The notes below the pieces were generated by a model, which saw only the letters and a list, made by a program, of their open reading frames with translations, was not told where the DNA came from and did not search any database. A DNA stretch of 64,000 nucleotides, from contig JAPKAD010000002.1 of the NCBI GenBank assembly GCA_028825445.1, forward strand, positions 1 to 64,000. Reading direction: 5' to 3'. The stretch comes from Octadecabacter sp. (GTDB lineage: Bacteria > Pseudomonadota > Alphaproteobacteria > Rhodobacterales > Rhodobacteraceae). The stretch's first letter is position 1. The number at the start of each line of letters is the position of its first letter. Positions 13,594-49,124 of the stretch are shown piece after piece. The position numbers and the translations under genes were made by a program.

Positions 13594-15105
13594 TCAAGCC
13601 ACCTTTTCGATGGCAATCCCCGAAATGGCTTGAATGAGGTTATCTTCAGTCACTTCTTTGGATGTAAATGTTCTCATGATGCGGCCTGAATACATCGCTA
13701 TGATGCGGTCTGCAACGTACAAAACTTCTGGCATTTCAGAACTGATAACTATGACTGCATAACCTTGTGCTGCCAATTCCCGGATCAAGTTATGGATCTC
13801 AGACTTAGATCCCACATCGATGCCACGCGTGGGTTCGTCAACGATCAGAACGCTAGGATGCATTGATAGCCATTTTGCAATAACAATTTTTTGCTGGTTG
13901 CCACCAGACAAATTTCCTACGGTTTGTTTCCATCCCGGGGTGCGAATATCGAGACGCTCTTTATATTTATCAAAGATCACATTTTCTTCAGCATGGGCCA
14001 CAAAGGGACCAGATTTGAGTGTATCTACCTGCGGCAAGGTCATGTTGTCGCGGCAGTTCATTCCCAGTACAAGGCCCTGTTCCTTGCGGTCTTCAGGGAC
14101 CAACGAAATCCCATGCAAAATGGCTTCGATTGGTGAGCTAATCCGTGTCTCTTGCCCAGACACAAGAATTGATCCAGCACTCGGATCACGTAGGCCAAAC
14201 AACGTCTCGGCAATCTCAGTGCGGCCAGCCCCGACGAGCCCGTAAAATCCAATAACTTCTCCACGCCGGACACTAAAGTTGATGTCGTGAAAAAGATTCC
14301 CACAGGACAAACCACGCGCTTCCAGCGCGACCTGCCCCAATTCGTGATGAACCGCGTTACGCGACAGATCGAGCTTGCGCCCGATCATCATTTGAGTGAC
14401 CTGATCTTCATCGGTTTCAGCAGTGATCGAAGTACCAGTATACTGACCATCGCGCAGAACGCTGATGCGGTCAGTAATCTTGAAAATTTCTTCCATACGA
14501 TGGGAAATGTAGATGATTCCAACACCACGCGATTTAAGGTCAGCTATCACATCAAATAACACTACTTTTTCAGCGTCTGTAAGAGATGCCGTCGGTTCGT
14601 CAAAGATTACCGCCTTGGCATCCACAGTCAGCGCACGGGCAATTTCGACCATCTGTTGATTAGCAATCGACATCGTACCCACGATGGTCTTCGAGTTGAA
14701 CCCAACATTAAGGCGAGCCAAAATAGCATCTGTTTTTTCATAAAGCGTAGCCCAATCTATACGGCCAAACCGTTTCAGTGGCAGTTCACCCAAATAAACA
14801 TTTTCAGCCACGGAAAGTTCCTGCGCAAGACTGAGTTCTTGGTGAATAAATAAAATGCCCTTCGCCTTCGCCTCAAGGGGTGAGGTCATAACGGCAATAG
14901 TTTCATTGACGATGATTTCACCGCTGTCTGGCTGATAGATGCCACCAAGAATCTTCATAAGTGTCGATTTTCCAGCGCCATTTTCACCCATTAAAGCATG
15001 GACTTCACCAGGCATGACGTCGAATGACACGCCATCAAGGGCGCGCACACCGGGGAAAGTTTTGACTATTCCCTCAAGGCGCAAAGCGGGGATTTGGCCA
15101 TTCAT
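13594..15105 (-). CDS. Sugar-type (CUT2) ABC transporter ATP-binding protein, two ATPase domains
   Basis: A 503-residue RbsA/MglA-like tandem ATPase. Domain 1 (about 5-240) has Walker A GENGAGKST, a weak signature (MSIANQQMVEIARAL) and Walker B VIFDEPTASL. Domain 2 (about 255-500) has the degenerate Walker A GLVGAGRTE usual for this family, signature LSGGNQQKIVIAKWL and VDEPTRGIDVG. The start overlaps the upstream permease stop by four bases (ATGA), implying translational coupling. It is the last gene of the SBP-SDR-permease-permease-ATPase operon. The ligand is unknown; ribose, rhamnose or a polyol would all fit the family. Confidence 0.92.
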   Translation of the reverse strand: MNGQIPALRLEGIVKTFPGVRALDGVSFDVMPGEVHALMGENGAGKSTLMKILGGIYQPDSGEIIVNETIAVMTSPLEAKAKGILFIHQELSLAQELSVAENVYLGELPLKRFGRIDWATLYEKTDAILARLNVGFNSKTIVGTMSIANQQMVEIARALTVDAKAVIFDEPTASLTDAEKVVLFDVIADLKSRGVGIIYISHRMEEIFKITDRISVLRDGQYTGTSITAETDEDQVTQMMIGRKLDLSRNAVHHELGQVALEARGLSCGNLFHDINFSVRRGEVIGFYGLVGAGRTEIAETLFGLRDPSAGSILVSGQETRISSPIEAILHGISLVPEDRKEQGLVLGMNCRDNMTLPQVDTLKSGPFVAHAEENVIFDKYKERLDIRTPGWKQTVGNLSGGNQQKIVIAKWLSMHPSVLIVDEPTRGIDVGSKSEIHNLIRELAAQGYAVIVISSEMPEVLYVADRIIAMYSGRIMRTFTSKEVTEDNLIQAISGIAIEKVA

Positions 15106-16103
15106 ATCTTCAACTCCTCTTTGCCTTTGGCGTTCAACTGACGGTCAAGGATCAGCACAGCTATTAGGATAATACCAATCACGAGGTTCACCGTCGATGT
15201 ATCCGCTCCGATATGACCCAGCCCCTTGCGCAAAAGTTGGATGGCAATGACCCCACCAAAGGTAGAAATAATAGACCCTGCACCTCCCGTTAGCTTGGTG
15301 CCACCTAAAACCACGGCAGTGATCACCCAGAGTTCGTAAAGCTGGCCATCATTTGGGTTCACCGATCCACTTTCCGAATAAAATACCACCGCAGACAGTG
15401 CAGCAAGAAAGCCAATGATCATGAAATTAATCAACATATGCGGACCGACCCGGATGCCCGCGTTCACTGCAGCTTCTTTGTTGTCACCAATTGCATAGGC
15501 ATTTCGACCATGGACTGTGCGCGTCATGACGAACCAGATAATGACAGTAACAACTAGTAAGAACCACGTCGCTGTATGCAGTCCCAGAAATTCAAGTTCC
15601 GCGAAATCAACTAGTGTCCAGTTCAGATGCGATGTAGGATTTTCACCATTATACATGAACACCAGCCCACGAAAGCCTAACATCGCGCCAAGCGTCACAA
15701 TGAAAGCATCAACCCCAGTTTTCCACACAATCAAACCATTAATGAACCCTAGAGCGGTACCAGTTAGTAAAGCCAGCAACCAAGATACGGGAATTACCCA
15801 TTCTCCAAGGCCCACAAATATCAGCCATGTCATAGAATCAAGCAATATGATCCCCGACATAGCAAAGATCGCCCCAACGCTCAGGTCAATGTTACCGTTG
15901 ATCATGATAATCGTCATGCCTATTGCAATGATGCCGATGGGTGCTGATTGTTTTAATAACAATAGCATGTTGTCGACGTCCATGAACGCTTTCTCCGACG
16001 TCGATAGAAATTCACCTGCAATGGAAAAGAAGATCATTTCTAGCACGATAAAACCCCAAATGGCGCCTTTACTAAAATATTTTGAGAGTTTTTTAGCATT
16101 CAT
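15102..16103 (-). CDS. Sugar-type ABC transporter permease (second)
   Basis: A 333-residue BPD_transp_2 (RbsC-like) permease with about nine membrane segments. Family motifs include GNIDLSVGAIFAMSGI and, near the C-terminus, VVLGGTKLTGGAGSIISTF. It is 12 bases downstream of the first permease gene and overlaps the ATPase gene. Two different permeases in one operon point to a heterodimeric channel, as in Lsr or rhamnose importers. Confidence 0.9.
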   Translation of the reverse strand: MNAKKLSKYFSKGAIWGFIVLEMIFFSIAGEFLSTSEKAFMDVDNMLLLLKQSAPIGIIAIGMTIIMINGNIDLSVGAIFAMSGIILLDSMTWLIFVGLGEWVIPVSWLLALLTGTALGFINGLIVWKTGVDAFIVTLGAMLGFRGLVFMYNGENPTSHLNWTLVDFAELEFLGLHTATWFLLVVTVIIWFVMTRTVHGRNAYAIGDNKEAAVNAGIRVGPHMLINFMIIGFLAALSAVVFYSESGSVNPNDGQLYELWVITAVVLGGTKLTGGAGSIISTFGGVIAIQLLRKGLGHIGADTSTVNLVIGIILIAVLILDRQLNAKGKEELKI

Positions 16104-16115
16104 GTGTCCCGCCCC

Positions 16116-17090
16116 CTAAGCGATCGTTGACCAGAACTTGCCACGTTTGGCTGCAATATCGAGCCAAACTGCAAAGATTATAATGACCCACGTCACAACA
16201 AACTGGACATAAAATTGTAACCCCACGAGGAGCAAACCATTTTGGATAAATCCCAGAATCAACACTCCAATGAGTGTCTTGAAAATCGTACCAGACCCAC
16301 CGAGGAGAGACGCCCCACCAAGAATGACTGCGGCCAAAACTTCAAGTTCCAACCCCTGCCCCACTGTATTTTGTGACCCCATCGACCGGCTGGCTTGGAT
16401 CAAACCCGCTATTGCCACGCAGGCTGCAGAGATGACGTAGCAATAAAATACATTGCGCGCGCGCGGGATGCCCGAAAATGTTGCTGCCGTACCATTGCCT
16501 CCCACTGCGTAGACTTTGCGCCCAAACGGGGTCTTGGCCAGAAGCAATCCCAAGAAGGTGGCCACCAATAAAAAAATAACGATCGGTACCGGAATGCCCA
16601 TGGCCGTGCCCTGTCCAAAAATATTAAACCATGTTCCCTCTTTATCGGCGATGTCCATATTCTTGCCGCCGGAATACGTCAATGTCAGTCCGTGAATAGC
16701 CGACAACATACCAAGAGTTACGATAAGTGAATTAAGCTTTAGATAGCCAACAAGAAGCCCGATCAGCGCTCCAAGCGCGATGGTCATCGCAAACATTAAC
16801 GGTATGGCGAGGGCGGGGCCAACTTTGTCATGCAAATCCAGCACCACAATAGTGGAAAATGACATCATCGACCCAACAGAAAGGTCCAGATTGCCACTGA
16901 CAACTACAAACGTAACCCCTAACGCCATGACGCCTAAAATAGCAGAGGACCGCATGACGCTCAGTACGTTTTCAATACTCAGGAACTTTCCATTGGCGAG
17001 CGTGAAGCCGATAATAAACATCGCAAATGCAATTATAATACCTTGGCGCGCAATAATTCTGCCAATTTTTTCTTTTGACATCTCTACCAT
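16116..17090 (-). CDS. Sugar-type ABC transporter permease (first)
   Basis: A 324-residue RbsC-like permease with GNLDLSVGSMMSFSTI and AVILGGASLLGGSGTIFKTL, the same two family blocks as its neighbour, but otherwise clearly divergent from it. The start has AGAGGAA upstream. It is separated from the SDR gene by about 55 bases carrying two hairpins. Confidence 0.9.
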   Translation of the reverse strand: MVEMSKEKIGRIIARQGIIIAFAMFIIGFTLANGKFLSIENVLSVMRSSAILGVMALGVTFVVVSGNLDLSVGSMMSFSTIVVLDLHDKVGPALAIPLMFAMTIALGALIGLLVGYLKLNSLIVTLGMLSAIHGLTLTYSGGKNMDIADKEGTWFNIFGQGTAMGIPVPIVIFLLVATFLGLLLAKTPFGRKVYAVGGNGTAATFSGIPRARNVFYCYVISAACVAIAGLIQASRSMGSQNTVGQGLELEVLAAVILGGASLLGGSGTIFKTLIGVLILGFIQNGLLLVGLQFYVQFVVTWVIIIFAVWLDIAAKRGKFWSTIA

Positions 17091-17103
17091 TATTCCTCTC
17101 TTT

Positions 17104-17161
17104 CGTCTGCTTGGGCAGACCCCCTATCGGGTTTTTGCATGACGCTAAATCAGCGTCATGC
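17104..17161 (-). ncRNA. Two intercistronic hairpins between the SDR and permease genes
   Basis: GCATGACGCT (17137-17146) pairs perfectly with AGCGTCATGC (17152-17161) across the SDR stop codon. GTCTGC (17105-17110) pairs with GCAGAC (17115-17120). No T-run follows in the direction of transcription, so these are likely message-stabilising or partial-termination structures. Confidence 0.5.
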
Positions 17162-17942
17162 CTCCATCAATCATGATGATTTGGCCAGTCATATAGTCAC
17201 TATCTTTTGATGCTAAAAAAGTGGTTGTTCCTGTGATATCATGCGGTTTGGCCACGCGGCCCTTCAGGATATTGGTTGAAAATTCTTCTAACGCTTGACC
17301 AGGCCGTTCGGACGCACCAATTCCCATCAAGTCGAGGTCAACCTGATCCCACATTTCGGTCGCCACTACACCTGGCGCAAAGCCTGTGACCGTAATGTCA
17401 TGTTTTGCCAGATCGCGCGCGCCAGATTGAGTTAGTGACACTACAGCCCACTTACTAGCACAATACGAAGCCACGTTATCATAACCTTGACGGCTTGCCA
17501 CAGAGGCTGTGTTGATAATCTTACCACCATGCCCTTGGGCAATCATCTGGCGAGCGGCCTCTTGAGTACCGATAAGGACACCAAGACCGTTAGTGTCCAT
17601 GATGAACTTCCAATTTTCTTCGGTCACATCAAGAAAGTTCATAGGGCGATTTACGCCAGCATTATTGAATTTGACGTCCAGCTTGCCAAAGATTGACACG
17701 GCGTGGTCAATCATCTTGCGGACTTGATTTCGGTTGGTTACATCAACGGTGCATTGAGTAATTTTGGCACCAGCTTTAGCTGCTCGGGATGCATTGGCGT
17801 CAACTACATCATTCAACCTGTCCGCATTTATATCAGCGAAACAAACATCTGCACCTTCATCCAAAAGTGCTTCACCGATGGCACGTCCAATACCTTGTGC
17901 GGCCCCTGTGACTATACAGGATCTACCCGAAACACGCCCCAT
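17145..17942 (-). CDS. SDR-family NAD(P)-dependent dehydrogenase
   Basis: A 265-residue classical short-chain dehydrogenase. TGAAQGIG (nucleotide binding) is at about 12-19, NNAGVN near 90, catalytic Ser in NTASVASRQG and the YCASK Tyr/Lys pair near 158-162. The C-terminal MTGQIIMIDGG is also typical. Its closest look is to polyol or butanediol dehydrogenases such as meso-2,3-butanediol and sorbitol dehydrogenases. It is embedded between the binding-protein and permease genes of an importer operon, which argues that it oxidises the imported substrate. A second SDR of the same type lies in the divergent operon. Confidence 0.9.
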   Translation of the reverse strand: MGRVSGRSCIVTGAAQGIGRAIGEALLDEGADVCFADINADRLNDVVDANASRAAKAGAKITQCTVDVTNRNQVRKMIDHAVSIFGKLDVKFNNAGVNRPMNFLDVTEENWKFIMDTNGLGVLIGTQEAARQMIAQGHGGKIINTASVASRQGYDNVASYCASKWAVVSLTQSGARDLAKHDITVTGFAPGVVATEMWDQVDLDLMGIGASERPGQALEEFSTNILKGRVAKPHDITGTTTFLASKDSDYMTGQIIMIDGGMTLI

Positions 17943-17983
17943 AGCGACTTTCCCAGTTCAAAATTGTTATATAAATTGTGTAG

Positions 17984-18017
17984 TAATGCGCGAAGCGGGT
18001 GCCTGCCCCGCGCATTA
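17984..18017 (-). ncRNA. Intercistronic hairpin after the binding-protein gene
   Basis: TAATGCGCG (17984-17992) pairs with CGCGCATTA (18009-18017). It lies directly between the SBP and SDR genes and parallels the hairpins after the other binding-protein genes in this window. No T-run is seen. Confidence 0.5.
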
Positions 18018-18030
18018 AGTAAGCAGTGTT

Positions 18031-18984
18031 TTAAAATACAGGCTTCGTGTAATTGCCCATATTGTCCTGCGTGATCTTTGGTGTATCGAAATAGTTTAGG
18101 AACGGTAGCTCTTCGCCTGCAAGAAGGTCCATCGCTGTCTTCAATGCGGCTTCTGCATCATCAACTGGGGACTGATAGATCGAACCCCAATATTCGCCAC
18201 GGGCCATCGCCTCATATCCGACTGCGAAATTGGTTGCACCGACAAAAGTGATACCATCCGTACGGCCGGCTGCATTTGCAGCATTCAATGCGCCTACGCC
18301 CATGTTATCATCACCGGCATAGACACCGTCAATGTCATCATACTTAACAAGAAATGCTTCCATGACCTGCTGAGACTTTTCACGGTTCCAATCACCTGGC
18401 TGTGTTTCGACCAGTGTAACATTTGGGCAAACTTCAGGAAGGCGATCTTCAAAACCTTTAGCGCGTTCGATAGCTGTCGTGTAGCCGGGTTGACCAGAGA
18501 TCTGCACAACGCGTGCTTCGTTCTGAGTGCCTAGAGCTGTGAAGCGCTCGCACATAATTTCAGCTGAACGCGATCCTTGTGTAATGTTGTCAGGACCCGA
18601 GAATGACGATACGAATTCAAAGCCAGCTTGCGCAATGTTGGAATTCGTCACTACAACAGGAATACTGGCTTGAAACGCTTTGCGAACGGCTGGAATTACA
18701 GCTTCGCCATTGGTTGGCCAAATGATGATTGCGTCAACTTCTTGTTGGATCAGATCTTCCATTTGGGCAATTTGCCGAGCGACATCTCCACCTGCGTCCA
18801 AAACCACAACTTCAACGTCTGAGTTAGCTTCTGCGGCTGCAATGAACGCTTGCTCATAAGTAGTTTGGTAACTGTCAACACCAACATTGTTTTGCGTAAT
18901 GCCAACTGTCATCGTTTCTGCTGCGGCGGCAGTACCAAAAACTGCAACCGTACAGGCAAGTGCTGCTTTAATTCTGTATTTCAT
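18031..18984 (-). CDS. Sugar-type ABC transporter substrate-binding protein
   Basis: A 317-residue periplasmic binding protein of the RbsB/Peripla_BP_4 type. The signal peptide is MKYRIKAALACTVAVFGTAA and the mature part begins near AETMTVGITQ. The domain includes QMEDLIQQEVDAIIIWPTN and VDGVYAGDDNMGVGAL (written DIDGVYAGDDNMGVG), the typical hinge-region blocks. The start at 18984 has GGAGG seven bases upstream; an in-frame ATG at 19005 lies before that site and is rejected. It is the first gene of the importer operon and diverges from the SBP-fused regulator across a 200-base region with paired operators. Confidence 0.9.
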   Translation of the reverse strand: MKYRIKAALACTVAVFGTAAAAETMTVGITQNNVGVDSYQTTYEQAFIAAAEANSDVEVVVLDAGGDVARQIAQMEDLIQQEVDAIIIWPTNGEAVIPAVRKAFQASIPVVVTNSNIAQAGFEFVSSFSGPDNITQGSRSAEIMCERFTALGTQNEARVVQISGQPGYTTAIERAKGFEDRLPEVCPNVTLVETQPGDWNREKSQQVMEAFLVKYDDIDGVYAGDDNMGVGALNAANAAGRTDGITFVGATNFAVGYEAMARGEYWGSIYQSPVDDAEAALKTAMDLLAGEELPFLNYFDTPKITQDNMGNYTKPVF

Positions 18985-19103
18985 AACGGGTCCTCCAAGA
19001 CTCATAGGGTGTAAGCGGTTGCTACTGTCCTCCCAGCCCAGCGAATCATCTGGTGCAACCTACAGATCAACTTTGGGCATTTTGCGTGGTAGCGAACCAC
19101 ATA

Positions 19104-19147
19104 AACTTATCCATTATGAATAGTTTTATATCCATAATGGATAAGTT
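19104..19147. promoter_or_regulatory. Paired operator in the divergent promoter region
   Basis: A 15-base perfect inverted repeat, AACTTATCCATTATG at 19104-19118 and its complement at 19133-19147, is built from two palindromes. TATCCATAATGGATA (19129-19143) is perfect around a central A, and TATCCATTATGAATA (19108-19122) has one mismatch pair. Their centres (19115 and 19136) are 21 bases apart, two helical turns. It lies between the importer operon and the regulator gene and is the obvious binding site for that regulator. Confidence 0.75.
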
Positions 19148-19194
19148 CTCCATACTGACTTTAAGTCAAATTGGACAAACTAAGGGATATGCAA

Positions 19195-21021
19195 ATGGCT
19201 AAACCGATTCCCGCCACAATAAAAGCAAAGCGATCCAGCACCTTGAATATGGTAGTCGAAAATATTAACCAAAATGGATACCGTCCTGGTAACAAATCCT
19301 CAGATAGTGAATCTGCGGTAATGATCGCGTCGCTTAATCGGGTTGTGAGGTTTCTTGAAGATCTGATGACCGAGATCGACTGCAGTGCCGAACTTAGATC
19401 GCCTAACCCTTATCTTAACATGAGCCTTCATCTAATCCGTTGCCATTTAGAAGGGCGCATTGTGACGGCATCTTCGCTCGTCGACACCTCTGGTGTGCCT
19501 TATGCTACCGCGATGCGCAAACTTGCTGAACTTGAGAAGTCAGGATTGGTTGAGCAGCGCCCACGTACCAAATCTGGGAAAAGCTTTTCATTACATCCTA
19601 GCGCTAAACTAATTGCTAATTGGAGCCAGATGGCCGATCGGATCCATCGGCTTGGTGTTGGAGCCTTTGGTAATAAAAAGGAAGAAGCTGACAACGACGA
19701 CTATTATTTCGGTGGGTCTTACCAAAACGGCCAAGCGCTTATCGAGCCACCAAAAACATTACCTAACCCACTAAAACTTCATGGTGGGTTGCGTATCTTG
19801 GTACACGGCGACCCAACTTTTATGGTGATGGACAACCTGAAAAGGCAGTTCGAACAAAATATTGGTATCCAAATTCACCAACGCGCTTTTTCAATCGACC
19901 GCTTGCGTGAAGAAGCATTACTCAACGCCGCACGCTCCAACAGCCGTTATGATATAATTGCCGTTGACCTGCCTTGGATAGGTGAGTTTGTTAAACGTGG
20001 CGTACTGAGACCACTGAATGCAATTATGGATATCGAACGGCTAGATCCAAGTGATTTTCACACAGCAGGTTGGCAGGCAGCACACTGGAATGGCACCCCC
20101 TACGGCGTGCCAAGCCAGACCACCCCAGAATTGATGTTTTACCGTAAAGATTGGTTTGCCAGAGCCGGTTTGCCTCCCCCCACGACAGCCGAAGCGGTTT
20201 TGAAAGCAGCCAAGGAATTGCACAACACACGAAGTGGGCGCTACGGCGTCGCATGGAATGCCGCACGTGGAACCGCACTTGGTCATACATTCATGACTAC
20301 CTGCGCAGCATTTGGTCAACCAATCATTGCTCTGCCAAAAATTGCTGGTGGGTATGATGCAACAGGTCTTGACCACCCCGATATCCGTCCGACCATCGAC
20401 ACGCCACAAGGCCTTGAAGCTGCTGAATACCTAATGGCGCTGCTTGAATTTTCACCACCAGACATTCTTTCAATGTCTTGGTATGAAAGAGTGCGTCCAT
20501 ATGCAGCTGGCAAAGTGGCGATGGCTTATGGATATACATTGCTGGCGCCGTACTTTGAACTCGACACGAGCTCCCCAGCTTGTGGTAACACAGGCTACCT
20601 CCCACAACCCTACGGACCACAAGGCGCACCAATCGCACCTGTTGGTGGCTACGTTTTCGGAATTCCAACGAACTTACCAGAAGATCGCGTTGCTGATGCC
20701 GTTGAAGCGCTCATCGCATTCACGTCGCCCGAATCACAAAAGCTGTTCGTGCAAAATGGCAGCCGCACCGCGCCGCGCTATTCGGTAGGGGCAGATCCTG
20801 AAGTTCGACGCCTGTCCCCAATATTTGAAGCTGTGGATGCAATGTCTTGGCGTGACGAGTTACAATTTTGGCCCCGTCCACCAATTCCACAAATCTCGGA
20901 CATCATCCAGATTTGTGGCCAAGAATTTCACGACATGTTGCGCGGCGTTACCAGCCCGCATGACGCACTCAGTCGGGCTCAGTCTCGGGCTGAGGACGCA
21001 TTACAACAGCCGGTCTCATAA
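19195..21021 (+). CDS. Winged-helix regulator fused to an ABC solute-binding domain
   Basis: A protein of 608 residues. The first 150 or so contain a MarR/winged-helix-like DNA-binding domain: LIRCHLEGRIVTASSLVDTS, then GVPYATAMRKLAELEKSGLV and a wing RPRTKSGKSFSLHPS. From about 190 to 600 it is a type 1 extracellular solute-binding fold, with LRILVHGDPTFMVMDNLKRQ, RYDIIAVDLPWIGEFVKRG, YGVPSQTTPELMFYRKDWF and AFTSPESQKLF. There is no signal peptide or membrane segment, so the binding domain is cytoplasmic and should act as a ligand sensor. The ATG at 19195 has AGGG eight bases upstream; a TTG at 19171 is possible. It diverges from the importer and starts a catabolic operon. Confidence 0.85.
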   Translation: MAKPIPATIKAKRSSTLNMVVENINQNGYRPGNKSSDSESAVMIASLNRVVRFLEDLMTEIDCSAELRSPNPYLNMSLHLIRCHLEGRIVTASSLVDTSGVPYATAMRKLAELEKSGLVEQRPRTKSGKSFSLHPSAKLIANWSQMADRIHRLGVGAFGNKKEEADNDDYYFGGSYQNGQALIEPPKTLPNPLKLHGGLRILVHGDPTFMVMDNLKRQFEQNIGIQIHQRAFSIDRLREEALLNAARSNSRYDIIAVDLPWIGEFVKRGVLRPLNAIMDIERLDPSDFHTAGWQAAHWNGTPYGVPSQTTPELMFYRKDWFARAGLPPPTTAEAVLKAAKELHNTRSGRYGVAWNAARGTALGHTFMTTCAAFGQPIIALPKIAGGYDATGLDHPDIRPTIDTPQGLEAAEYLMALLEFSPPDILSMSWYERVRPYAAGKVAMAYGYTLLAPYFELDTSSPACGNTGYLPQPYGPQGAPIAPVGGYVFGIPTNLPEDRVADAVEALIAFTSPESQKLFVQNGSRTAPRYSVGADPEVRRLSPIFEAVDAMSWRDELQFWPRPPIPQISDIIQICGQEFHDMLRGVTSPHDALSRAQSRAEDALQQPVS

Positions 21022-21031
21022 GGAGGAAACC

Positions 21032-21841
21032 ATGGACCCCAATCGCTTAAACGGAAAAAATATCCTCATCACAGGTGCTGCACGCGGCATGGGTGAGGCA
21101 AACGCCATTAACTTTGCCGCTCAAGGCGCAAACGTTTGTATCGGCGATCTGGACTTCGATGAAGCCAAAAAAGTAGCTGATATCATTAACGCTGAGGGTA
21201 ATGGGCAATCAATTGCGGTCAAAATGGATGTGACAAAGCGTGAAGATAACAAAGCAGCAGTTGCAGCCACTGTTGCAGCTTTCGGCTCCATAAATATTGG
21301 TTTATTCAACGCCGGTCTGAACAAACCAAAATTCTTCATGGATATCGATGAGGACAATTGGGACATGATCATGAACGTTAATACCAAAGCCATGTGGCTT
21401 GGTATGCAGGAAACTGCTGCGCAAATGATTGCGCAAGGTCCCATGTCCGATCACCCATATAAACTAATCAATGTTGGGTCCATCGCATCGCGCAAACCAC
21501 TGATTGATGTAACTGTCTATTGCGCGTCCAAATACGGCTGTCTGGCCTTGACGCATTGTGGTGCAATTGCATTAGGAGAGCACAACATCACAGTTAATGG
21601 CTACGCGCCAGGGGTTGTTGTGACCCCACTTTGGGAACAGCTTGATAAAGACCTTGTTGAGATTGGGTTCAAAGAAAAAGCTGGTCAAGCCTATGAAGAC
21701 ATCTCTGAAAATGAGTTGGTCATTAAGCGGGTATCATATCCTAAGGACATCGTTGGCACAGCGTCTTTTCTGTGTTCCGACGATAGCGATTACATGACAG
21801 GTCAGATGATCCACATAGATGGCGGCTGGTGCATCCAGTAG
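21032..21841 (+). CDS. SDR-family NAD(P)-dependent dehydrogenase (second)
   Basis: A 269-residue classical SDR: TGAARGMGEAN for nucleotide binding, FNAGLN, Ser in NVGSIASRKP, YCASK catalytic Tyr/Lys, MTGQMIHIDGG at the end. It starts 10 bases after the regulator with a strong AGGAGG, so it is in the same operon; the frame stays open further upstream inside the regulator gene, but that is chance. It resembles the SDR of the divergent operon in motif details (DEDNWDMIMNVN here, TEENWKFIMDTN there). The two may oxidise neighbouring hydroxyls or act in sequence. Confidence 0.9.
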   Translation: MDPNRLNGKNILITGAARGMGEANAINFAAQGANVCIGDLDFDEAKKVADIINAEGNGQSIAVKMDVTKREDNKAAVAATVAAFGSINIGLFNAGLNKPKFFMDIDEDNWDMIMNVNTKAMWLGMQETAAQMIAQGPMSDHPYKLINVGSIASRKPLIDVTVYCASKYGCLALTHCGAIALGEHNITVNGYAPGVVVTPLWEQLDKDLVEIGFKEKAGQAYEDISENELVIKRVSYPKDIVGTASFLCSDDSDYMTGQMIHIDGGWCIQ

Positions 21842-21903
21842 TCAACAAAATTTAATCTAACTAAATTTTAATGGTTGGCCCACGCCACCTAAAGGAGGCA
21901 ACT

Positions 21904-23214
21904 ATGTCTGATCGTCCATCCAATGCGCTAATGCCGAACCTACTCACGCCACAGGATGTCGAACCCAATTGGCAGTGGGAAGGAAAAATTCCTGCTTGGG
22001 GTCATTCCTCCGTTGATTTTGAAAAAAGGGTCGATCATGACCGTTTGCGCCGCTACCGATTGGGTCGCACCCGTGAGGCTTTAAAAGCATCCGAATGCGG
22101 CACGTTACTACTATTCGACGTGAACAATATACGGTATGTATCCGCCACTAAGATTGGTGAGTGGGAACGAGATAAGATGTGCCGCTTCTGTCTGTTGACA
22201 GGGGATGACGCTCCATATGTTTGGGACTTTGGATCAGCGGCAATGCACCATAAAAAGCATTCTGATTGGTTGGTTCCGGACCACTGTCGAGCAGGTGTTG
22301 TCGGTATGCGCGGTACAATCCCACCGAGCTTTGGCCTGATGAAAAAATACGCTGAAGAAATTGCAGGCTTGATCGAAGATGCAGGCATGAAGGGAATGCC
22401 CGTTGGAGTGGATTATGCAGAAACTGCTATGTTCCACGCTTTACAAGAAGCAGGCTTGAACGTTGTGGATGGGCAGCAAACCATGTTGGCCGCACGTGAG
22501 ATCAAAAACTGGGATGAAATTCAGTTACTCACACAGGCTGCTGCTATGGTCGATGGGGTTTACCACATGATCTATGAGGAGCTGAAACCAGGCATCCGTG
22601 AAAACGATATTGTCGCGATGTCCAACAAGATGCTCTATGAAATGGGAAGTGACGATGTAGAGGCGATCAACGCCGTGTCAGGTGAGCGGTGCAATCCCCA
22701 TCCACACAACTTTACTGACCGTTATTTCCGGCCCGGCGATCAGGCCTTCTTTGATATTCTTCAGTCCTACCAGGGGTATCGAACCTGTTATTATCGGACG
22801 TTCAACATTGGCAAATCGACTCCTTCGCAACGTGACGCCTATGAAAAGGCACGTCATTGGTTAGATGCATCGATTGCGATGATCAAACCCGGTGTAACGA
22901 CAGATAAGGTCGCAGCAGTTTGGCCAACAGCCCAAAGCCTTGGATTTCCCGACGAATTATCTGCCTTTGGCCTTCAATTTGGTCATGGCCTTGGCCTTGC
23001 ATTGCACGAACGTCCAATAATCAGTCGTGCGGTTAGTTTCGAAAACCCCATGGAAATCAAAACTGGCATGGTCTTTGCACTAGAGACTTACTGTCCAGCT
23101 TCAGACGGTTATTCGGCTGCGCGAATCGAAGAAGAAGTCGTCGTGACTGACACAGGTTGCGAGGTCATTAGCCTTTTTCCTGCCGAAGAGCTGCCAATCG
23201 CCAATCGTTACTAA
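21904..23214 (+). CDS. M24-fold (creatinase/aminopeptidase-like) protein lacking one metal ligand
   Basis: A 436-residue protein with a creatinase N-terminal domain (about 40-190) and a pita-bread M24 domain (about 205-430). Expected ligands: first Asp present (FFDIL); second Asp replaced by Cys (GYRTCYYRTF where families have SDxxRT); His present (FGHGLGLALHERP); Glu present (VFALETY); Glu present (ARIEEEVVV). A changed metal site suggests a non-peptidase hydrolase or lyase, as with other M24-fold enzymes such as creatinase and DMSP lyase DddP. Start ATG at 21904 has AAAGGAGG. It sits in the operon between an SDR and the E1 genes, so a small-molecule substrate is more likely than peptides. 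Confidence 0.8.
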   Translation: MSDRPSNALMPNLLTPQDVEPNWQWEGKIPAWGHSSVDFEKRVDHDRLRRYRLGRTREALKASECGTLLLFDVNNIRYVSATKIGEWERDKMCRFCLLTGDDAPYVWDFGSAAMHHKKHSDWLVPDHCRAGVVGMRGTIPPSFGLMKKYAEEIAGLIEDAGMKGMPVGVDYAETAMFHALQEAGLNVVDGQQTMLAAREIKNWDEIQLLTQAAAMVDGVYHMIYEELKPGIRENDIVAMSNKMLYEMGSDDVEAINAVSGERCNPHPHNFTDRYFRPGDQAFFDILQSYQGYRTCYYRTFNIGKSTPSQRDAYEKARHWLDASIAMIKPGVTTDKVAAVWPTAQSLGFPDELSAFGLQFGHGLGLALHERPIISRAVSFENPMEIKTGMVFALETYCPASDGYSAARIEEEVVVTDTGCEVISLFPAEELPIANRY

Positions 23215-23226
23215 CCTCCCTAAACT

Positions 23227-23255
23227 GCCCGGCCTCTTATGGGTCGGGCCATTTT
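23227..23255 (+). terminator. Weak terminator-like hairpin between the M24 and E1alpha genes
   Basis: GCCCGGCC (23227-23234) pairs with GGTCGGGC (23242-23249) with one G-T pair, followed by CATTTT. The T-run is short, so partial termination or message processing within the operon is more likely than a full stop. Confidence 0.45.
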
Positions 23256-23267
23256 GCGAGCTACATT

Positions 23268-24272
23268 ATGAGCACAGAAACAAAAACGGCATCAAACACT
23301 GAAGACTATCTGCGGATGTACCGCCAGATGGTTCGTATCCGCACGTTTGAGGATAACGCGAACCAGCTTTACTTGTCCGCAAAAATGCCTGGACTGACGC
23401 ATATGTATTCTGGCCAAGAAGCTGTTGCCGTAGGCATCTGTGAAGCATTGAAAGTAAGCGATAAAATTACTTCGACCCACCGCGGGCACGGACACTGCGT
23501 TGCCAAGGGCGCAAACTTTAAAGAGATGTTCTGTGAGTTGTTGGGCAAAGAAGAGGGCTATTGTCGCGGCAAAGGCGGATCCATGCACATCGCAGATCAG
23601 TCCAACGGCAACCTTGGTGCAAATGCTATTGTTGGCGGGTCCATGGGCATCGCCACTGGATCGGCGTTCACGGCAAAAATGCTTGGTAAGGACGACGTCA
23701 CCGTCTGCTTCTTTGGTGATGGTGCGACGGCGCAAGGAATTATGTACGAAGTCATGAACATGGCCGCACTTTGGAACCTGCCTGTAATTTATGCATGCGA
23801 AAACAACGGCTACTCGGAATACACCAAGACTGAAGAAATCGCCGCAGGGTCGATCACCGCCCGCGCAGAGGCGTTTGGTATCGAAGCGTTTCAGGTTGAC
23901 GGGCAGGATGTCCTCGCCGTCAACACACTCGCAACCGATCTGGCTGCCCGCGCACGCAAAGGCGAAGGCCCATTTTTTATCGAATTGATGACATATCGCT
24001 ACCACGGTCACCACGTAGGCGACATCAATCGTGAATACTATCGCACTAAGGACGAAGAGAAAGATTGGAAAGAAAACCGTGATCCTATCATTCGTTTTCG
24101 CACCCATTTAGTTGTGGAAGGCCTCGCCACAGAGGAAGAATTGGATGCGTTCAATGCCGAAATCGCGAGTGATGCCGAAGCCGCAGTGGCCTACGCGCTC
24201 GATGCAAAATATCCCGATGTGTCAGAAGTCGACATGCATGTCTTTACCGATATTAAACATGCGTTGGCATAA
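23268..24272 (+). CDS. Thiamine-diphosphate dehydrogenase E1 alpha subunit (acetoin/pyruvate type)
   Basis: A 334-residue E1alpha. The ThDP motif starts GDGATAQGIMYEVMNMAALW and ends about 30 residues later in ENNGYSEYT. Upstream are SGQEAVAVGI and HRGHGHCVAKG, and the phosphorylation-loop region contains YRYHGHHVGD. Family members decarboxylate 2-oxo acids or cleave acetoin. The alpha2beta2 layout, the GHHVGD segment and the aldehyde dehydrogenase downstream resemble the acetoin dehydrogenase branch (AcoA) more than housekeeping PDH, but this is by eye. It begins an E1alpha-E1beta-lipoyl-ALDH-E2 series; no E3 (dihydrolipoyl dehydrogenase) gene is nearby. Confidence 0.88.
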   Translation: MSTETKTASNTEDYLRMYRQMVRIRTFEDNANQLYLSAKMPGLTHMYSGQEAVAVGICEALKVSDKITSTHRGHGHCVAKGANFKEMFCELLGKEEGYCRGKGGSMHIADQSNGNLGANAIVGGSMGIATGSAFTAKMLGKDDVTVCFFGDGATAQGIMYEVMNMAALWNLPVIYACENNGYSEYTKTEEIAAGSITARAEAFGIEAFQVDGQDVLAVNTLATDLAARARKGEGPFFIELMTYRYHGHHVGDINREYYRTKDEEKDWKENRDPIIRFRTHLVVEGLATEEELDAFNAEIASDAEAAVAYALDAKYPDVSEVDMHVFTDIKHALA

Positions 24273-24284
24273 GGAGAGACTGCA

Positions 24285-25280
24285 ATGAGAGAAATTACCC
24301 TATCCCAAGCTGTTAACGAAGCCTTGGCAGAAGAAATGCGGCGCGATCCGACCACATTTATCATCGGTGAAGACGTCGCCGAAGCTGGCACCCCGTTCAA
24401 AATCCTGTCCGGTTTGGTCGAAGAATTTGGTACTAAACGCGTTGTTGACACACCAATCTCTGAACCCGGTTTTGTAGGGCTCGCGGTTGGCGCTGCCATG
24501 ACGGGTACCCGCCCCATTGTAGACTTAATGTTCGGCGATTTCATCTTTTTGATCATGGATCAATTGTGCAATCAGGCAGCCAAAACCCATTACATGTCGG
24601 GGGGCAAAATGACCGCTCCGATGGTTTTGCGCACGAACCTTGGCGCAACACGCCGCTCTGGCGCGCAGCACTCACAATCCCTGCACGCGCTCGTCGCCCA
24701 TATTCCAGGACTGAAGGTCGCCATGCCGTCATCGGCTTATGAAGCAAAAGGCCTGCTAAAGACTGCTATTCGCGATAACAACCCTGTCGTGATCTTCGAA
24801 GACAAACTGATGTATCAAGACAAGGCCGGGGTACCTGAAAAAGAATATTTGATTCCCTTTGGTATTGCTAATGTCAAACGAACCGGGTCAGATATTACCC
24901 TGATCGGGACGTCATCGATGGTGCAGGTGGCCGAAGCCGCAGCAGATATCCTCGCACTTGAAGGCATCAGTGCCGAGGTTATTGACCCACGCACAATCGT
25001 GCCGTTGGACGAAGGTACACTAATTAAGTCTGTCAAGAAAACCAGCCGTGCCATTATTATTGATGAAGGCCATCAAAGCTACGGGATTACTGGAGAAATC
25101 GCGAGCCGTTTGAACGAAAAGGCATTCTATTATCTTGATGCGCCAGTACTGCGCATGGGCGCGATGGACGTGCCAATTCCGTTCTCACCCGCGCTTGAGG
25201 ATATTACTGTGCCGACGCCCGAAAGGGTGGCCGCCAATGCCCGCAAACTCTGCGCGGGGGAGATGATCCATGCAACGTGA
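24285..25280 (+). CDS. Thiamine-diphosphate dehydrogenase E1 beta subunit
   Basis: A 331-residue transketolase-like beta subunit: EDVAEAGTPFKILSGLVEEF and TPISEPGFVGLAVGAAM early, GAQHSQSLHALVAHIPGLKV in the middle, and the C-terminal transketolase domain with IDPRTIVPLDEGTLIKSV. It starts 12 bases after E1alpha with AAGGAG and overlaps the lipoyl-protein gene by 11 bases, implying tight co-expression. It completes the E1 heterotetramer. Confidence 0.9.
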   Translation: MREITLSQAVNEALAEEMRRDPTTFIIGEDVAEAGTPFKILSGLVEEFGTKRVVDTPISEPGFVGLAVGAAMTGTRPIVDLMFGDFIFLIMDQLCNQAAKTHYMSGGKMTAPMVLRTNLGATRRSGAQHSQSLHALVAHIPGLKVAMPSSAYEAKGLLKTAIRDNNPVVIFEDKLMYQDKAGVPEKEYLIPFGIANVKRTGSDITLIGTSSMVQVAEAAADILALEGISAEVIDPRTIVPLDEGTLIKSVKKTSRAIIIDEGHQSYGITGEIASRLNEKAFYYLDAPVLRMGAMDVPIPFSPALEDITVPTPERVAANARKLCAGEMIHAT

Positions 25281-26592
25281 CGTGATCATGCCCGCCTTAG
25301 GCATGGCTCAGGACACTGGCAAAATCACCAGTTGGCTTAAGGCCGAAGGTGATGCTGTGGCAACAGGGGACCCTTTATTTGAGGTCGAAACTGACAAGGC
25401 AACGATGGAGGTTGAGGCACAATCATCGGGATTTCTAACCAATATCATTGCTGCCGCTGGAGACGATGTTCCAGTGGGCAATGTCATCGCCTTAATTTCC
25501 GAAACAGCAATCGAGATAGCTGTGAGTGTTGCCACGTCCCCTGCCACTAACGAGCCAACTGACTTTCCTGACGACAATCAGCTCTCCAATGGTACCAATA
25601 TCATCATGCCCGTCCTTGGCATGGCGCAGGATTCTGGCAAACTGATATCTTGGAACAAAGCGCTCGGCGATGCCGTTGCCTCCGATGACGTGCTGTTCGA
25701 AGTTGAGACCGACAAAAGCACGATGGAAGTCCCCGCTGGCGCAGGTGGATACCTTGCAGCGATTATGGCGGATGTGGGCGAAGATGTGCCCACGGGACAA
25801 ACAATCGCAATTATCACTGACAGAAAGCCAGACAAGACGTACAGTCAAAGTGACATAAAAGCCAAATTTGTAACGCCAATAGTAGAATTGGCGACTGCAC
25901 CAAAAACTCAGGCATCAATGCCAGCGGCCCCAAAAACCGCCCCCACAACACCGCGCAGCGATGGGCGAATTCTTGCCTCGCCCAAGGCGCGCCGCTTGGC
26001 GTCCGCAGCTGGGTTGGACCTTGCCAAATTAGTCTCAGCCGGACATCCCCAACCTTATCATGCCGTCGATATCGACGTACTGCGCAATCTGCCCACAGAG
26101 TGCAGCAATGTGGTAAATTCAATTGTAATACCACGCCAGATCACCGCAAGTGCGCAACGCGCGGGGACAGAAGAATTTCTTATGTGGATGCTGGAGGAAG
26201 GGGGTGTCACAATAACGCCATCAACGCTCTGGGGCAGCTTTGCGTCGGGTGCAATGCGGGCAGCACAGCCCGACAGCCCAGACATCGCCGTTCAAATCAC
26301 CCCCTTGCAGGGCGACAGCACGACACTGCTTAACCCTGATCAATCCCGCCTGTCAAAGCTAATTGAAACGACCAACCCAGCCAGCATCATCCTGCGTGAT
26401 CTTACAGGCAGCCACATCACCAGCCTCAATCTTGGCCCCGCCGACGCGCCCACCATAACAATTGCGCGCGACGGCGACACCTTGCGTCTGTCTTTGGACT
26501 TTACGCCCGATCAGCTGAACGACGCAGCCGCCATTGCGCTAATCTCTGGCTTTGCCAACCGCCTTGTCGACCCCTTGTACCACCTGCTTTAA
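25270..26592 (+). CDS. Double-lipoyl E2-like protein with a degenerate acyltransferase domain
   Basis: A 440-residue protein. Lipoyl domain 1 is about 1-78 (K43 in VETDKATMEV) and lipoyl domain 2 about 108-184 (K149 in VETDKSTMEV), joined by linkers rich in Ala, Pro and Thr. A peripheral subunit-binding domain lies at 233-268 (ILASPKARRLASAAGLDLAK). Residues about 285-440 align loosely with an E2 catalytic domain (LSLDFTPDQLNDAAAIAL where active enzymes have a DHRVxDG-type motif), but the active-site His is missing and the domain is short. It should swing acyl groups between E1 and a partner, with catalysis supplied by the separate E2 gene at 28044. Confidence 0.82.
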   Translation: MQRDVIMPALGMAQDTGKITSWLKAEGDAVATGDPLFEVETDKATMEVEAQSSGFLTNIIAAAGDDVPVGNVIALISETAIEIAVSVATSPATNEPTDFPDDNQLSNGTNIIMPVLGMAQDSGKLISWNKALGDAVASDDVLFEVETDKSTMEVPAGAGGYLAAIMADVGEDVPTGQTIAIITDRKPDKTYSQSDIKAKFVTPIVELATAPKTQASMPAAPKTAPTTPRSDGRILASPKARRLASAAGLDLAKLVSAGHPQPYHAVDIDVLRNLPTECSNVVNSIVIPRQITASAQRAGTEEFLMWMLEEGGVTITPSTLWGSFASGAMRAAQPDSPDIAVQITPLQGDSTTLLNPDQSRLSKLIETTNPASIILRDLTGSHITSLNLGPADAPTITIARDGDTLRLSLDFTPDQLNDAAAIALISGFANRLVDPLYHLL

Positions 26593-26608
26593 ACCGATTG
26601 GACCTGAA

Positions 26609-28039
26609 ATGAAGCTTAATGATCTCTACATCAACGGCCAATGGAAACCTGGTAGCACCAACGCGCGTTTTGACGTGTTTAACCCAGCCACAGAAGAGTT
26701 GATTGAAACTGTGGCATCTGCCGAAATCACCGATGCAGATGCTGCATTGGATGCCGCAGAAGCCGCGATGAAAGACTGGTCTGCACGCACCCCGCGCGCG
26801 CGTTCCGAAGTGTTGCGCAAAGCCTGGGAATTGATGACAGCCCGTCTTGAAGAATTTGCACATCTCATCACACTAGAAAACGGCAAAGCCCATGCAGATG
26901 CTATTGGCGAAGCCACTTATGCCGCAGAATTCTTCCGTTGGTTTGCCGAAGAAGCTGTTCGCGCTGACGGCATGATAACCCATGCCCCCGCATCAGGTGC
27001 GCGCATCATTGTGCAGCACAAGCCCGCAGGGTTGGCGGTTTTGATCACACCATGGAACTACCCCGCGGCAATGGGAACCCGCAAAATCGCACCTGCGTTG
27101 GCCGCTGGTTGCGCCATGATCATCAAACCCGCGTCTGAAACACCTTTGACCATGCTGGCCTTGATGCCACTGCTTGAAGAAGCAGGCGTGCCTGCGGGGT
27201 TGGTGAACGTCCTACCTTCACGTCAAACAGGTGCGCTTGTTGATCACATGCTGCACGATCCGCGCGTTCGCGTCGTCAGCTTTACCGGATCAACTGGAGT
27301 GGGCCGCAAGCTACTACGCTCTGCCGCTGATCGCGTGTTAAAACCAGCGATGGAACTCGGTGGCAACGCGCCACTGATCGTTTTTGAAGACGCCGACCTA
27401 GATGTCGCGGTCGAGGGCGCAATGCTGGCCAAAATGCGTAACCTTGGCGAAGCCTGCACCGCCGCCAACCGCATTTATGTTCATGCAGATGTGGCCGACG
27501 CCTTTACGGCCAAATTCACAGCCGCAATGAGTGCTCTCAAAATGGGTAATGGCACCGATCCAACAGTCGATGTTGGCCCACTGGTCAACGCCGCCACCCG
27601 CGACCAAGTCGCAAAATTTGTGGCAGACGCCGTGGCCAAAGGTGCAAAGATCGAACTGGGTGGCATTACACCAGACGGGCGCGGATTTTTCTATCCGCCC
27701 ACCGTGTTGTCCAATGTGTCCGAGAACAGCGATTGTGTGCACGACGAAATCTTTGGGCCTGTTGCTGCGATTCAAACCTTCACCGACCAAGAAGACGTGA
27801 TCCGCCGCGCCAATGACACCGAATACGGTCTGGTCGCCTACGTGTTTTCTGAAGATATGAAGCGCGCGTTGCAGGTTTGCGAAAGGCTTGACTACGGCAT
27901 GGTTGGTCTGAACCGTGGCCTTGTGAGCGATCCCGCAGCACCGTTTGGTGGCACTAAACAGTCCGGTCTTGGCCGTGAAGGTGGCCATGAAGGCATGCTC
28001 GAATTTATGGAAACCCAATATATTTCAGCAAGTTGGTGA
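26609..28039 (+). CDS. NAD(P)-dependent aldehyde dehydrogenase (succinate-semialdehyde type)
   Basis: A 476-residue aldehyde dehydrogenase of normal length. WNYPAAMGTRKIAPALAAG leads the nucleotide fold, FTGSTGVGRKL is the cofactor loop, MELGGNAPLIVFEDAD has the catalytic Glu, and GEACTAANRIYV has the nucleophilic Cys. The C-terminus has FGGTKQSGLGREGGHEGMLE, typical of GabD-like enzymes. The ATG at 26609 is preferred to an earlier one overlapping the previous gene. In acetoin operons an aldehyde dehydrogenase oxidises the aldehyde released by the AcoAB complex; that role fits here, but the substrate is not known. Confidence 0.88.
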   Translation: MKLNDLYINGQWKPGSTNARFDVFNPATEELIETVASAEITDADAALDAAEAAMKDWSARTPRARSEVLRKAWELMTARLEEFAHLITLENGKAHADAIGEATYAAEFFRWFAEEAVRADGMITHAPASGARIIVQHKPAGLAVLITPWNYPAAMGTRKIAPALAAGCAMIIKPASETPLTMLALMPLLEEAGVPAGLVNVLPSRQTGALVDHMLHDPRVRVVSFTGSTGVGRKLLRSAADRVLKPAMELGGNAPLIVFEDADLDVAVEGAMLAKMRNLGEACTAANRIYVHADVADAFTAKFTAAMSALKMGNGTDPTVDVGPLVNAATRDQVAKFVADAVAKGAKIELGGITPDGRGFFYPPTVLSNVSENSDCVHDEIFGPVAAIQTFTDQEDVIRRANDTEYGLVAYVFSEDMKRALQVCERLDYGMVGLNRGLVSDPAAPFGGTKQSGLGREGGHEGMLEFMETQYISASW

Positions 28040-28043
28040 TGTG

Positions 28044-28928
28044 ATGTCAGACATTATCGCCAGCCCATCAGTGCGCAGGCTTGCAGGACAAAAAGGCTTG
28101 GACCTAGACCAGCTTGCCGACGATCTGGGCCGCCAAACGATCGCACGCGAAGACCTTGATGCGTCCACCAAACACGCGTCCCCGCGGACTGAACAGGGGC
28201 GCCAATATTGGGAAGTGGATCACACCCAATACGGACTAGTAACCGAAGAACCATTGAGCCGCTTTGCGCAGCTTACCGCGCACAACCTCGCGGCGGCGCA
28301 GGCCTTTATCCCTGCGGTAACACATCACGATCAAGCGGATATTTCTGCGATTGAAGCCTTTCGTGCATCTCTCAAGCCAGAGGCGGCGGCTCGTGGCATA
28401 AAACTCACCACATTAGCGTTTCACGTCAAAACGCTGGCTCGGTTATTGCACACATTCCCAAGGTTTAATGCGTCACTGTCCGTGAATGGCGAAACCCTCA
28501 TTTTCAAGAACTATGTCCATATTGCAATCGCTGTAGATACGGAATTCGGTCTAATGGTTCCTGTCATTCGTGACGTGGATCGCAAAGGATTGTGGCAAAT
28601 CGCTGCTGAAATTTCAGACATCGCCAAACGGGCTCAAAACCGGAAAATTCGCCCAGATGAAATGGGTGGAGCATCTATGACGATTACTAATTTAGGTGGT
28701 ATTGGCGGCACTGCTTTCACCCCCATCGTCAACCCGCCCGAGGTCGCCATACTCGGAATCACCCGCACTCAAATAGCGACCGTTTGGAACGGCAGCATCC
28801 CCGTTCCAAAACCAATGGCACCGCTGGATCTCAGTTACGATCACCGCGTGATAAACGGTGCGGAAGCTGCACGATTCATGGTTGAGCTTACAAGGCTTAT
28901 TGCCGATCCCCGCCGATTGCTCACTTAA
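28044..28928 (+). CDS. Stand-alone E2 acyltransferase without lipoyl domain
   Basis: A 294-residue protein with a peripheral subunit-binding domain first (about 5-40, ASPSVRRLAGQKGLDLDQLA) and then a complete CAT-like acyltransferase domain (about 65-292): TLAFHVKTLARLLHTFPRFN, VPVIRDVDRKGLWQIA, MTITNLGGIGGTAFTPIVNP and the active site SYDHRVINGAEAARF. The Asn in HRVING instead of Asp is also found in some active PDH E2 chains. No lipoyl domain is present, so lipoyl arms must come from the protein at 25270. The start follows the aldehyde dehydrogenase stop by four bases. Confidence 0.85.
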   Translation: MSDIIASPSVRRLAGQKGLDLDQLADDLGRQTIAREDLDASTKHASPRTEQGRQYWEVDHTQYGLVTEEPLSRFAQLTAHNLAAAQAFIPAVTHHDQADISAIEAFRASLKPEAAARGIKLTTLAFHVKTLARLLHTFPRFNASLSVNGETLIFKNYVHIAIAVDTEFGLMVPVIRDVDRKGLWQIAAEISDIAKRAQNRKIRPDEMGGASMTITNLGGIGGTAFTPIVNPPEVAILGITRTQIATVWNGSIPVPKPMAPLDLSYDHRVINGAEAARFMVELTRLIADPRRLLT

Positions 28929-46993: not shown

Positions 46994-47003
46994 AGTTTTC
47001 TCC

Positions 47004-47891: not shown

Positions 47892-47894
47892 ATT

Positions 47895-49010: not shown

Positions 49011-49034
49011 GACCATTCCTTTTCTGAAAACCAG

Positions 49035-49052: not shown

Positions 49053-49124
49053 ACGGTTATCGTCTGAGTCTGTAACCTTCAAGTCGTAATCGATGCCATG
49101 AACTATTCTAAGGAACACACCAGC

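Follow-up and report, generated by a model that had tools for sequence, protein, structure and literature searches.

Clusters of genes for importing, oxidising and cleaving a small compound are known for sugars and for acetoin. In acetoin catabolism, a thiamine diphosphate (ThDP)-dependent complex of the AcoABC type, with E1 alpha, E1 beta and E2 components, converts an alpha-hydroxyketone into acyl-CoA and an aldehyde; an oxidative pathway is known for L-rhamnose and L-fucose. Here we describe a cluster at positions 13594-28928 of a 64,000-nucleotide stretch of Octadecabacter sp. DNA (contig JAPKAD010000002.1, positions 1 to 64,000; called the window throughout). It encodes a CUT2 importer, two short-chain dehydrogenases/reductases (SDR_A and SDR_B), a ThDP complex, an aldehyde dehydrogenase (ALDH) and a protein of the M24 fold, M24-Cys. 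The cluster is a conserved unit common to many alphaproteobacteria, and two enzyme sets seem to have repeatedly replaced each other in its final steps. To the view that it is a regulated module that catabolises a small polyhydroxylated compound (a polyol, a cyclitol or a rare or deoxy sugar), acting by the steps set out below, we give even credence.

In this scheme the compound would be brought into the cell by the CUT2 importer and its hydroxyls would be oxidised to carbonyls by SDR_A and SDR_B. M24-Cys, most likely a hydrolase with a Cys-containing metal site, would then convert the resulting keto compound to an acyloin or alpha-keto acid. In the window, the ThDP complex would lead from here to acyl-CoA, with ALDH oxidising the aldehyde. 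In sister loci, a KduD-like SDR, a second SDR and a lactate-dehydrogenase-like flavin mononucleotide (FMN) enzyme would process the same intermediate; in about half of these a diketo-deoxyaldonate hydrolase would be added, which by analogy with the named families might give pyruvate and a hydroxy acid. Import and domain functions are read from family membership, and we infer the order of the steps, the substrate and the M24 reaction.

The original prediction had described an importer operon diverging from a regulator-led operon, and this layout was confirmed (13594-18984, minus strand, and 19189-28928, plus strand). All 13 cluster genes are open frames on the predicted strands in an ORF check of the window, and the families assigned by NCBIfam and Pfam profile scores against curated cut-offs agree with those named before. 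Likely starts within the longest ORFs lie at 19189 (regulator), 21032 (SDR_B), 21904 (M24-Cys), 26609 (ALDH) and 28044 (E2). We fetched 99 M24-centred loci, namely 19 from a search among relatives and the best 80 of at least 587 stretches of a species-level genome collection, a selection that favours close relatives. Every family (with at least one SDR) was present in 51 of the 99 loci, and in 46 of the 77 loci whose called genes extend past 19 kb; two SDRs were found in 60/99. The predicted conservation as a unit is thereby supported. Over the 99 loci, the regulator was counted 84 times, E1 alpha 80, E1 beta 79, the solute-binding protein (SBP) 77, the importer ATPase 75, ALDH 73, the two-lipoyl protein 71 and E2 64 times. 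Loci short of the full set had different layouts, cut contigs or missed gene calls. Since their genes were called with a simple codon-usage script, absences close to contig ends are not true absences; both SDRs fall into one protein cluster in these loci. No dihydrolipoyl dehydrogenase gene adjoins the window cluster; one was present in 9/99 loci.

Within the genus the cluster is accessory, since an M24 orthologue occurs in only 3 of the 18 other genomes. Of 195 genomes taken as relatives, 20 (own counted) carry an orthologue, at 54-100% identity; after these, the best full-length match drops to 31%, and one further genome holds an 81%-identical piece of 52 residues. At E<=1e-60 we found M24 matches in 16/385 genomes class-wide, two of which hold only a 35%-identical group, and in 6/398 phylum-wide (own counted in both). 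In the species-level collection at least 587 of 596 pattern-matching stretches encode an M24 relative. Most of the best 80 of these are alphaproteobacteria by title, and many belong to marine genera; the compound is thus probably a common nutrient there. M24 genes of 86-89% identity also occur on 18 plasmid records, including those of Phaeobacter, Tritonibacter and Marinovum, and the single plasmid record inspected, pP92_e of Phaeobacter inhibens P92, carries the whole cluster together with dihydrolipoyl dehydrogenase (E3), ThuA and HIBADH genes.

In 13 of the 119 rows of the M24 tree, importer, SDRs and M24 are the same and the E1/E2 genes are replaced. Instead of E1, M24 is followed here by a trio of the KduD-like SDR (c5; 316 bits, cut-off 339), the second SDR (c8) and the FMN dehydrogenase (c7; L-lactate-dehydrogenase-like, 297 bits, cut-off 376). 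All three are found in ten of these loci and c5 with c7 in L082; the stretches of L091 and L114 end early. Kangsaoukella pontilimi (L101) is one of the trio strains. Seven of the 13 carry an additional gene (c14) for an acylpyruvase-like hydrolase resembling 2,4-didehydro-3-deoxy-L-rhamnonate hydrolase (408 bits, cut-off 500) at the position taken in other loci by genes of the 3-hydroxyisobutyrate dehydrogenase (HIBADH) and ThuA families. The two sets exclude each other: c7 or c8 occurs in 12/99 loci, none of them with E1. At genome level, E1 alpha (E<=1e-100) was absent from all 13 trio genomes and present in both controls, and a c7 match of at least 77% was found in the two trio genomes searched (one being the source of the query) and in none of nine E1-type genomes, where the best match reached 44% (L054 left out). 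The shared genes are alike in both kinds of locus; their identity to the window's importer, SDRs and M24 is 79-87% in L044, the sole trio locus compared, and 78-88% in the E1-type locus L041. On the M24 tree the trio label changes 12 times, with at least six switches forced by starred branches; 184 of 500 label shuffles needed equally few changes or fewer, so that the trio rows do not cluster beyond chance. Part of this scatter could come from a poorly resolved tree or from recombination of M24 itself. Most simply, SDR_A, SDR_B and M24-Cys would make one intermediate that either enzyme set can finish. As the ThDP complex is replaced in 13 loci, the shared chemistry should lie upstream, in these three enzymes. 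Such mutually exclusive replacement offers a comparative handle on the intermediate, which should suit both enzyme sets.

The ThDP complex of the window consists of E1 alpha (23268-24272, plus strand; E1_dh), E1 beta (24285-25280, plus; Transket_pyr/C), a two-lipoyl protein (25270-26592, plus) and an E2 acyltransferase core (28044-28928, plus; 2-oxoacid_dh). E2 has a DHR motif but lacks a lipoyl domain; as the two lipoyl domains are on a separate gene product, the acyltransferase is split. The two-lipoyl protein also has a subunit-binding-like segment and a C-terminal domain without family match. This domain weakly resembles an E2 core without the DHR motif, and the match (probability 8%, E 0.0045) was too weak for it to be taken as a decayed E2 core. 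E1 alpha remains under the NCBIfam cut-offs for pyruvate dehydrogenase (PDH) and branched-chain 2-oxo acid dehydrogenase (BCKDH; 346 vs 394 bits). E1 beta remains under its equivalog cut-off (394 bits, cut-off 454) and passes NF006667, named for PDH E1 beta (387 bits, cut-off 321), a subfamily model that need not separate E1 kinds. In a tree of concatenated E1 alpha and beta (27 rows; that of L133 has a short E1 alpha of 226 residues), the window E1 and nine orthologues, one of them from outside the class (G621), form one clade with a support of 100, apart from the organism's own PDH (C106) and the BCKDH reference. The own PDH, which by eye stands in a pgk-fba-pdhA-pdhB-pdhC row, groups with PDH references (support 100), and the genome encodes two other E1 alpha genes besides that of the cluster. 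On the strength of this separate clade, housekeeping PDH was rejected as the identity of the cluster E1. The original prediction had named lack of conservation as a unit and a housekeeping E1 without another copy in the genome as findings that would speak against it; neither was found, because the unit is conserved and its E1 clade is apart from the own PDH. Another non-PDH E1 alpha/beta and E2 set was seen by eye at L203 (G000:C118), together with transaldolase-like and transketolase genes.

It had been proposed that this complex cleaves an acyloin. The SDRs would then yield an alpha-hydroxyketone, which the ThDP complex would split into acyl-CoA and an aldehyde as in acetoin catabolism, the aldehyde being oxidised by ALDH. 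The tree is compatible with such a route, as the window E1 clade is joined with an acetoin-type pair, the Acinetobacter acetoin dehydrogenase and its Klebsiella homologue, although with a support of only 76. The Acinetobacter genes adjoin acetoin reductase and 2,3-butanediol dehydrogenase genes on a plasmid. Furthermore, the acetoin reductase model is the best one for both SDRs, under its cut-off in each case (SDR_A, 17145-17942, minus strand, TIGR02415 256 bits, cut-off 304; SDR_B, 21032-21841, plus strand, 195 bits each for this and the L-iditol dehydrogenase model), and the ALDH gene (26609-28039, plus strand; Aldedh, succinate-semialdehyde-dehydrogenase-like, 545 bits, subfamily cut-off 646) lies within the operon. 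Nevertheless, the complex is missing from 13 loci and genomes that share importer, SDRs and M24, and the scheme leaves M24-Cys without a role. Acyloin cleavage is thus possible, but that the pathway needs it is not supported, and as an account of the whole cluster we consider it doubtful.

M24-Cys (21904-23214, plus strand) matches the Pfam family Peptidase_M24 with 129 bits (cut-off 23). Searched against the PDB, its family profile matches the dimethylsulfoniopropionate (DMSP) lyase DddP best, with 95 bits over nearly the full length, whereas the sequence alone places a dipeptidase (74 bits) slightly ahead of DddP (70 bits over most of the length). The predicted structure, modelled with a pLDDT of 59 from a narrow and of 91 from a wider alignment, has the DddP/prolidase fold and is in the latter case nearest to DddP (TM 0.78, 23% identity) among 238 PDB matches at E<=0.001, which also include creatine amidinohydrolase and ectoine hydrolase. 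The six metal ligands of DddP are Asp295, Asp297, Asp307, His371, Glu406 and Glu421 (PMC4108388). By alignment to this list, four of the six are kept in M24-Cys (Asp284, His361, Glu394 and Glu409), Asp297 has no counterpart and Asp307 is replaced by Cys295, which thus takes the place of the second metal Asp. DddP family membership was rejected on the score against NF043017 (111 bits, cut-off 600) and on the two missing ligands of that list. Cys295 is present in all 116 M24 sequences of at least 50% identity (window included; a few of them are identical, and the 40 further relatives fetched for the model are not counted). Among 15 more distant sequences it is Cys in five and Asp in ten. His266 and His268 are likewise present in 116/116 sequences and His368 in 111/116, while the positions of the His pair are occupied by Trp and other residues in the ten Asp-type relatives. 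Such a histidine pattern, as in M24 peptidases, is taken as hydrolase-like. M24-Cys belongs to an unstudied branch of the M24 fold, which we read as a separate subfamily, probably more hydrolase-like than DddP. A distant group (L164-L167 and L190; 35-36% identity) from alphaproteobacteria and Halorussus keeps the Cys and has no two-histidine pair.

Alternatively, M24-Cys could be a lyase, i.e. a dehydratase forming a 2-keto-3-deoxy acid by beta-elimination in the way that DddP eliminates dimethyl sulfide. The trio would then be a branch of the L-fucose/L-rhamnose type and E1/E2 a 2-oxo acid dehydrogenase. The family likeness of c14, c5 and c7, for all its scores below the cut-offs, fits this route, and so do the restriction of c14 to trio loci (7/7) and the nearest fold being a lyase. 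However, M24-Cys is without two of the DddP ligands listed in the source and has retained histidines not found in DddP, the cluster genes include no recognised lactonase or aldolase, and ALDH would have no clear place. We regard this deoxyaldonate route as unlikely. For M24-Cys itself it is conceivable, though we lean slightly against it, that this Cys-substituted metal site has a new activity, neither peptidase nor DMSP lyase, which makes a branch-point metabolite of a widespread carbon pathway, finished by either of two exchangeable, non-homologous enzyme sets, a ThDP complex or an SDR/FMN route with an acylpyruvase. The Cys subfamily may bring new chemistry to the M24 fold.

The importer shows the features of CUT2 systems, with a sugar-type ATPase extending over both halves (13594-15105, best NCBIfam match RbsA, 561 bits, cut-off 745), two permeases (15102-16103 and 16116-17090; by eye and neighbourhood) and a periplasmic SBP with a Peripla_BP_4 domain (18031-18984), all on the minus strand. 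A sugar specificity could not be assigned, as no equivalog among the matches listed (the best 25 of 190 for the ATPase, 17 of 17 for the SBP) reached its cut-off. The best structural match of the SBP is the sugar-binding protein 2ioy (114 bits), followed by 5hko/4rs3 (106 bits), which bind xylitol or sorbitol, and by the galactofuranose-type YtfQ (104 bits). In the window SBP as in 5hko/4rs3, by eye, the Asp-Arg pair of ribose-type SBPs is replaced. The polyol-type proteins are thus among the top matches and share this replacement, but the window SBP scores higher with 2ioy and nearly equally with YtfQ. Naming a substrate from the SBP was given up because ribose-, polyol- and galactofuranose-type structures have similar scores; since these solved relatives score alike, only a leaning towards a polyol is left. 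By eye, two further CUT2-type importers and a xylulokinase-like gene lie at 32.7-44.7 kb of the window.

An inositol-like ring would also be a polyhydroxylated substrate; the SDRs would oxidise it to a diketone, which M24-Cys would open hydrolytically. In genome G148 the neighbours of the M24-E1-ALDH genes include an iolE that exceeds its cut-off, a class II aldolase gene, and iolC- and iolB-like genes that fall short of theirs; the window has inositol-type genes including IolD at 45.9-55.5 kb. On the other hand, an IolD is encoded in both genomes, and in the window the cluster and the inositol genes are 17 kb apart. In the neighbourhoods compared (plasmid loci excluded), matches to the window inositol genes were limited to IolG-like oxidoreductases (L113, L132), except in the G148-type loci L051 and L158. 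A cyclitol route thus seems very unlikely. The inositol-type region of the window extends over 45857-55513, with IolD (49143-50978) over the curated cut-off and IolC-, IolB- and aldolase-like genes recognised by their match to L051.

The divergent promoter of 204 bp contains a predicted operator (19104-19147), a 19-bp inverted repeat with two TCCAnnnTGGA-like palindromes 21 bp apart. Of 76 intergenic stretches between divergent SBP and regulator genes, window included, 72 contain the palindrome with up to one mismatch, against a mean of 6.5 and a maximum of 12 in shuffled sequences; 42 of the 76 have a pair spaced 16-24 bp, for which the shuffles gave a mean of 0.01 and a maximum of 1. It occurs in both E1-type and trio loci, with the pair present in the trio loci L073, L082 and L085. 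When up to two mismatches were allowed in genome searches, 9 of 12 genomes had the tandem palindrome at the cluster, the exceptions being G014, G024 and G067. It was discarded as a regulon finder, because the other hits, with one (G117) or two mismatches, were taken as chance; as a control, the reversed pattern hit once in G073 and once in G117. G006 differs in having an exact second site, which belongs to a recent duplicate of the importer half, which lies on the same contig (L274, 9741-15578; 5.8 kb, 99.95% identical). The regulator gene (19189-21021, plus strand) encodes an N-terminal region without Pfam match and an SBP_bac_1 domain at residues 235-518. We infer that this protein would bind the tandem palindrome and sense its ligand in the cytoplasm.

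The M24 gene is also found in other company. Three E1 clades adjoin M24: besides that of the window, one from G148, G326 and G221, and one with alpha and beta fused, found in G058, Streptomyces and Paenarthrobacter (support 100 each). The latter two join with a Sphingobium homologue between them (supports 74 and 50). The M24-E1 association thus probably does not stem from one inherited operon. M24-Cys and E1/E2 might be no part of a single pathway, but a portable unit serving a common metabolite in unrelated catabolic clusters, including those for nitrogen compounds in actinobacteria. Three importer types among the 99 loci (the same CUT2 in 76, another CUT2 in six and a LIV type in six, none of these within the stretch in 11) would fit this, as would TRAP and TctABC neighbours seen by eye and the RidA, amidase, LIV-type importer or luciferase-like monooxygenase (LLM) neighbours on actinobacterial plasmids. 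However, a single importer accompanies M24 in 76/99 loci, even though the sampling favours close relatives, and we judge a portable unit to be rather unlikely. On Paenarthrobacter plasmids (L187, L188, L191 and L192) M24-Cys genes were seen with RidA and HIBADH-like genes, one copy lying near a flavin reductase annotated as SulR.

Several observations weigh against our preferred reading of a single polyol-type module with exchangeable final steps. M24 has no adjoining E1 in L048, L050, L162 and a Rhodococcus plasmid stretch. Elsewhere it lies near LIV-type importers, RidA, amidase and flavin-reductase genes, company that suits a plain polyol less well. On actinobacterial plasmids it is carried near RidA, an amidase, a LIV-type importer, or an LLM together with a flavin reductase, so that the M24-E1 pair may serve a common metabolite and not one nutrient. 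The gene c5 is not exclusive to the trio, as it also trails the E1/E2 genes in eight E1-type loci, and no completeness is given for 12 of the 13 trio genomes, which were reached through their loci. How many swaps took place is uncertain because the M24 tree is a quick one, with long end branches, warnings and poorly resolved parts, and because the cluster genes differ in history within this genus. The controls for the palindrome were mononucleotide shuffles, and the loci tested are related. Finally, the pathway may be altered locally, since next to the ATPase gene only relics of a ThuA-domain gene (12079-12741) and a HIBADH-family, tartronate-semialdehyde-reductase-like gene (12895-13520) are left, both on the minus strand and in pieces in two frames.

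Relatives carry intact copies at this place (a ThuA relative, c3, in 33/99 loci and a HIBADH relative, c1, in 37/99), from which the window cluster seems once to have extended further, into these genes. The window M24 is 98% identical to that of G014/G017 and the two-lipoyl protein only 43-44%, while E1 beta is 96% identical to that of G006, where M24 reaches 82%. Compared with L034, L035 and L047, the region 21904-26592 shows a mosaic of identities, with 43-78% for the two-lipoyl protein, which points to recombination within the cluster. The locus is undergoing recombination, and its function may be changing.

No paper on the cluster or on the swap was found in searches of an open-access library, which mostly lacks subscription papers, in agreement with the original view that the combination is not a described pathway. 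From its gene families, the cluster appears to resemble the known import-oxidise-cleave clusters for sugars or acetoin, DddP membership of its M24 protein being excluded. It shares with the acetoin dehydrogenase system E1 alpha/beta, E2 and acetoin-reductase-like SDRs nearby, and its E1 alpha and beta are each 47% identical to those of Acinetobacter. It differs by its own E1 clade, by the split E2 with a two-lipoyl partner, and by the addition of M24-Cys, ALDH and the CUT2 importer. With the PDH complex it has the E1/E2 folds in common, and its E1 beta passes the subfamily model, whereas it is the separate PDH of the genome that groups with PDH references. DddP is the best profile match in the PDB and the best match of the predicted fold; M24-Cys, in contrast, is without two of the metal ligands given in the source for DddP and holds histidines absent from it. 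The oxidative pathway for L-rhamnose and L-fucose is matched by the KduD-like SDR, the lactate-dehydrogenase-like FMN enzyme and the diketo-deoxyaldonate-hydrolase-like gene, but these are confined to sister loci and score under the curated cut-offs, and an M24 protein stands amid them.

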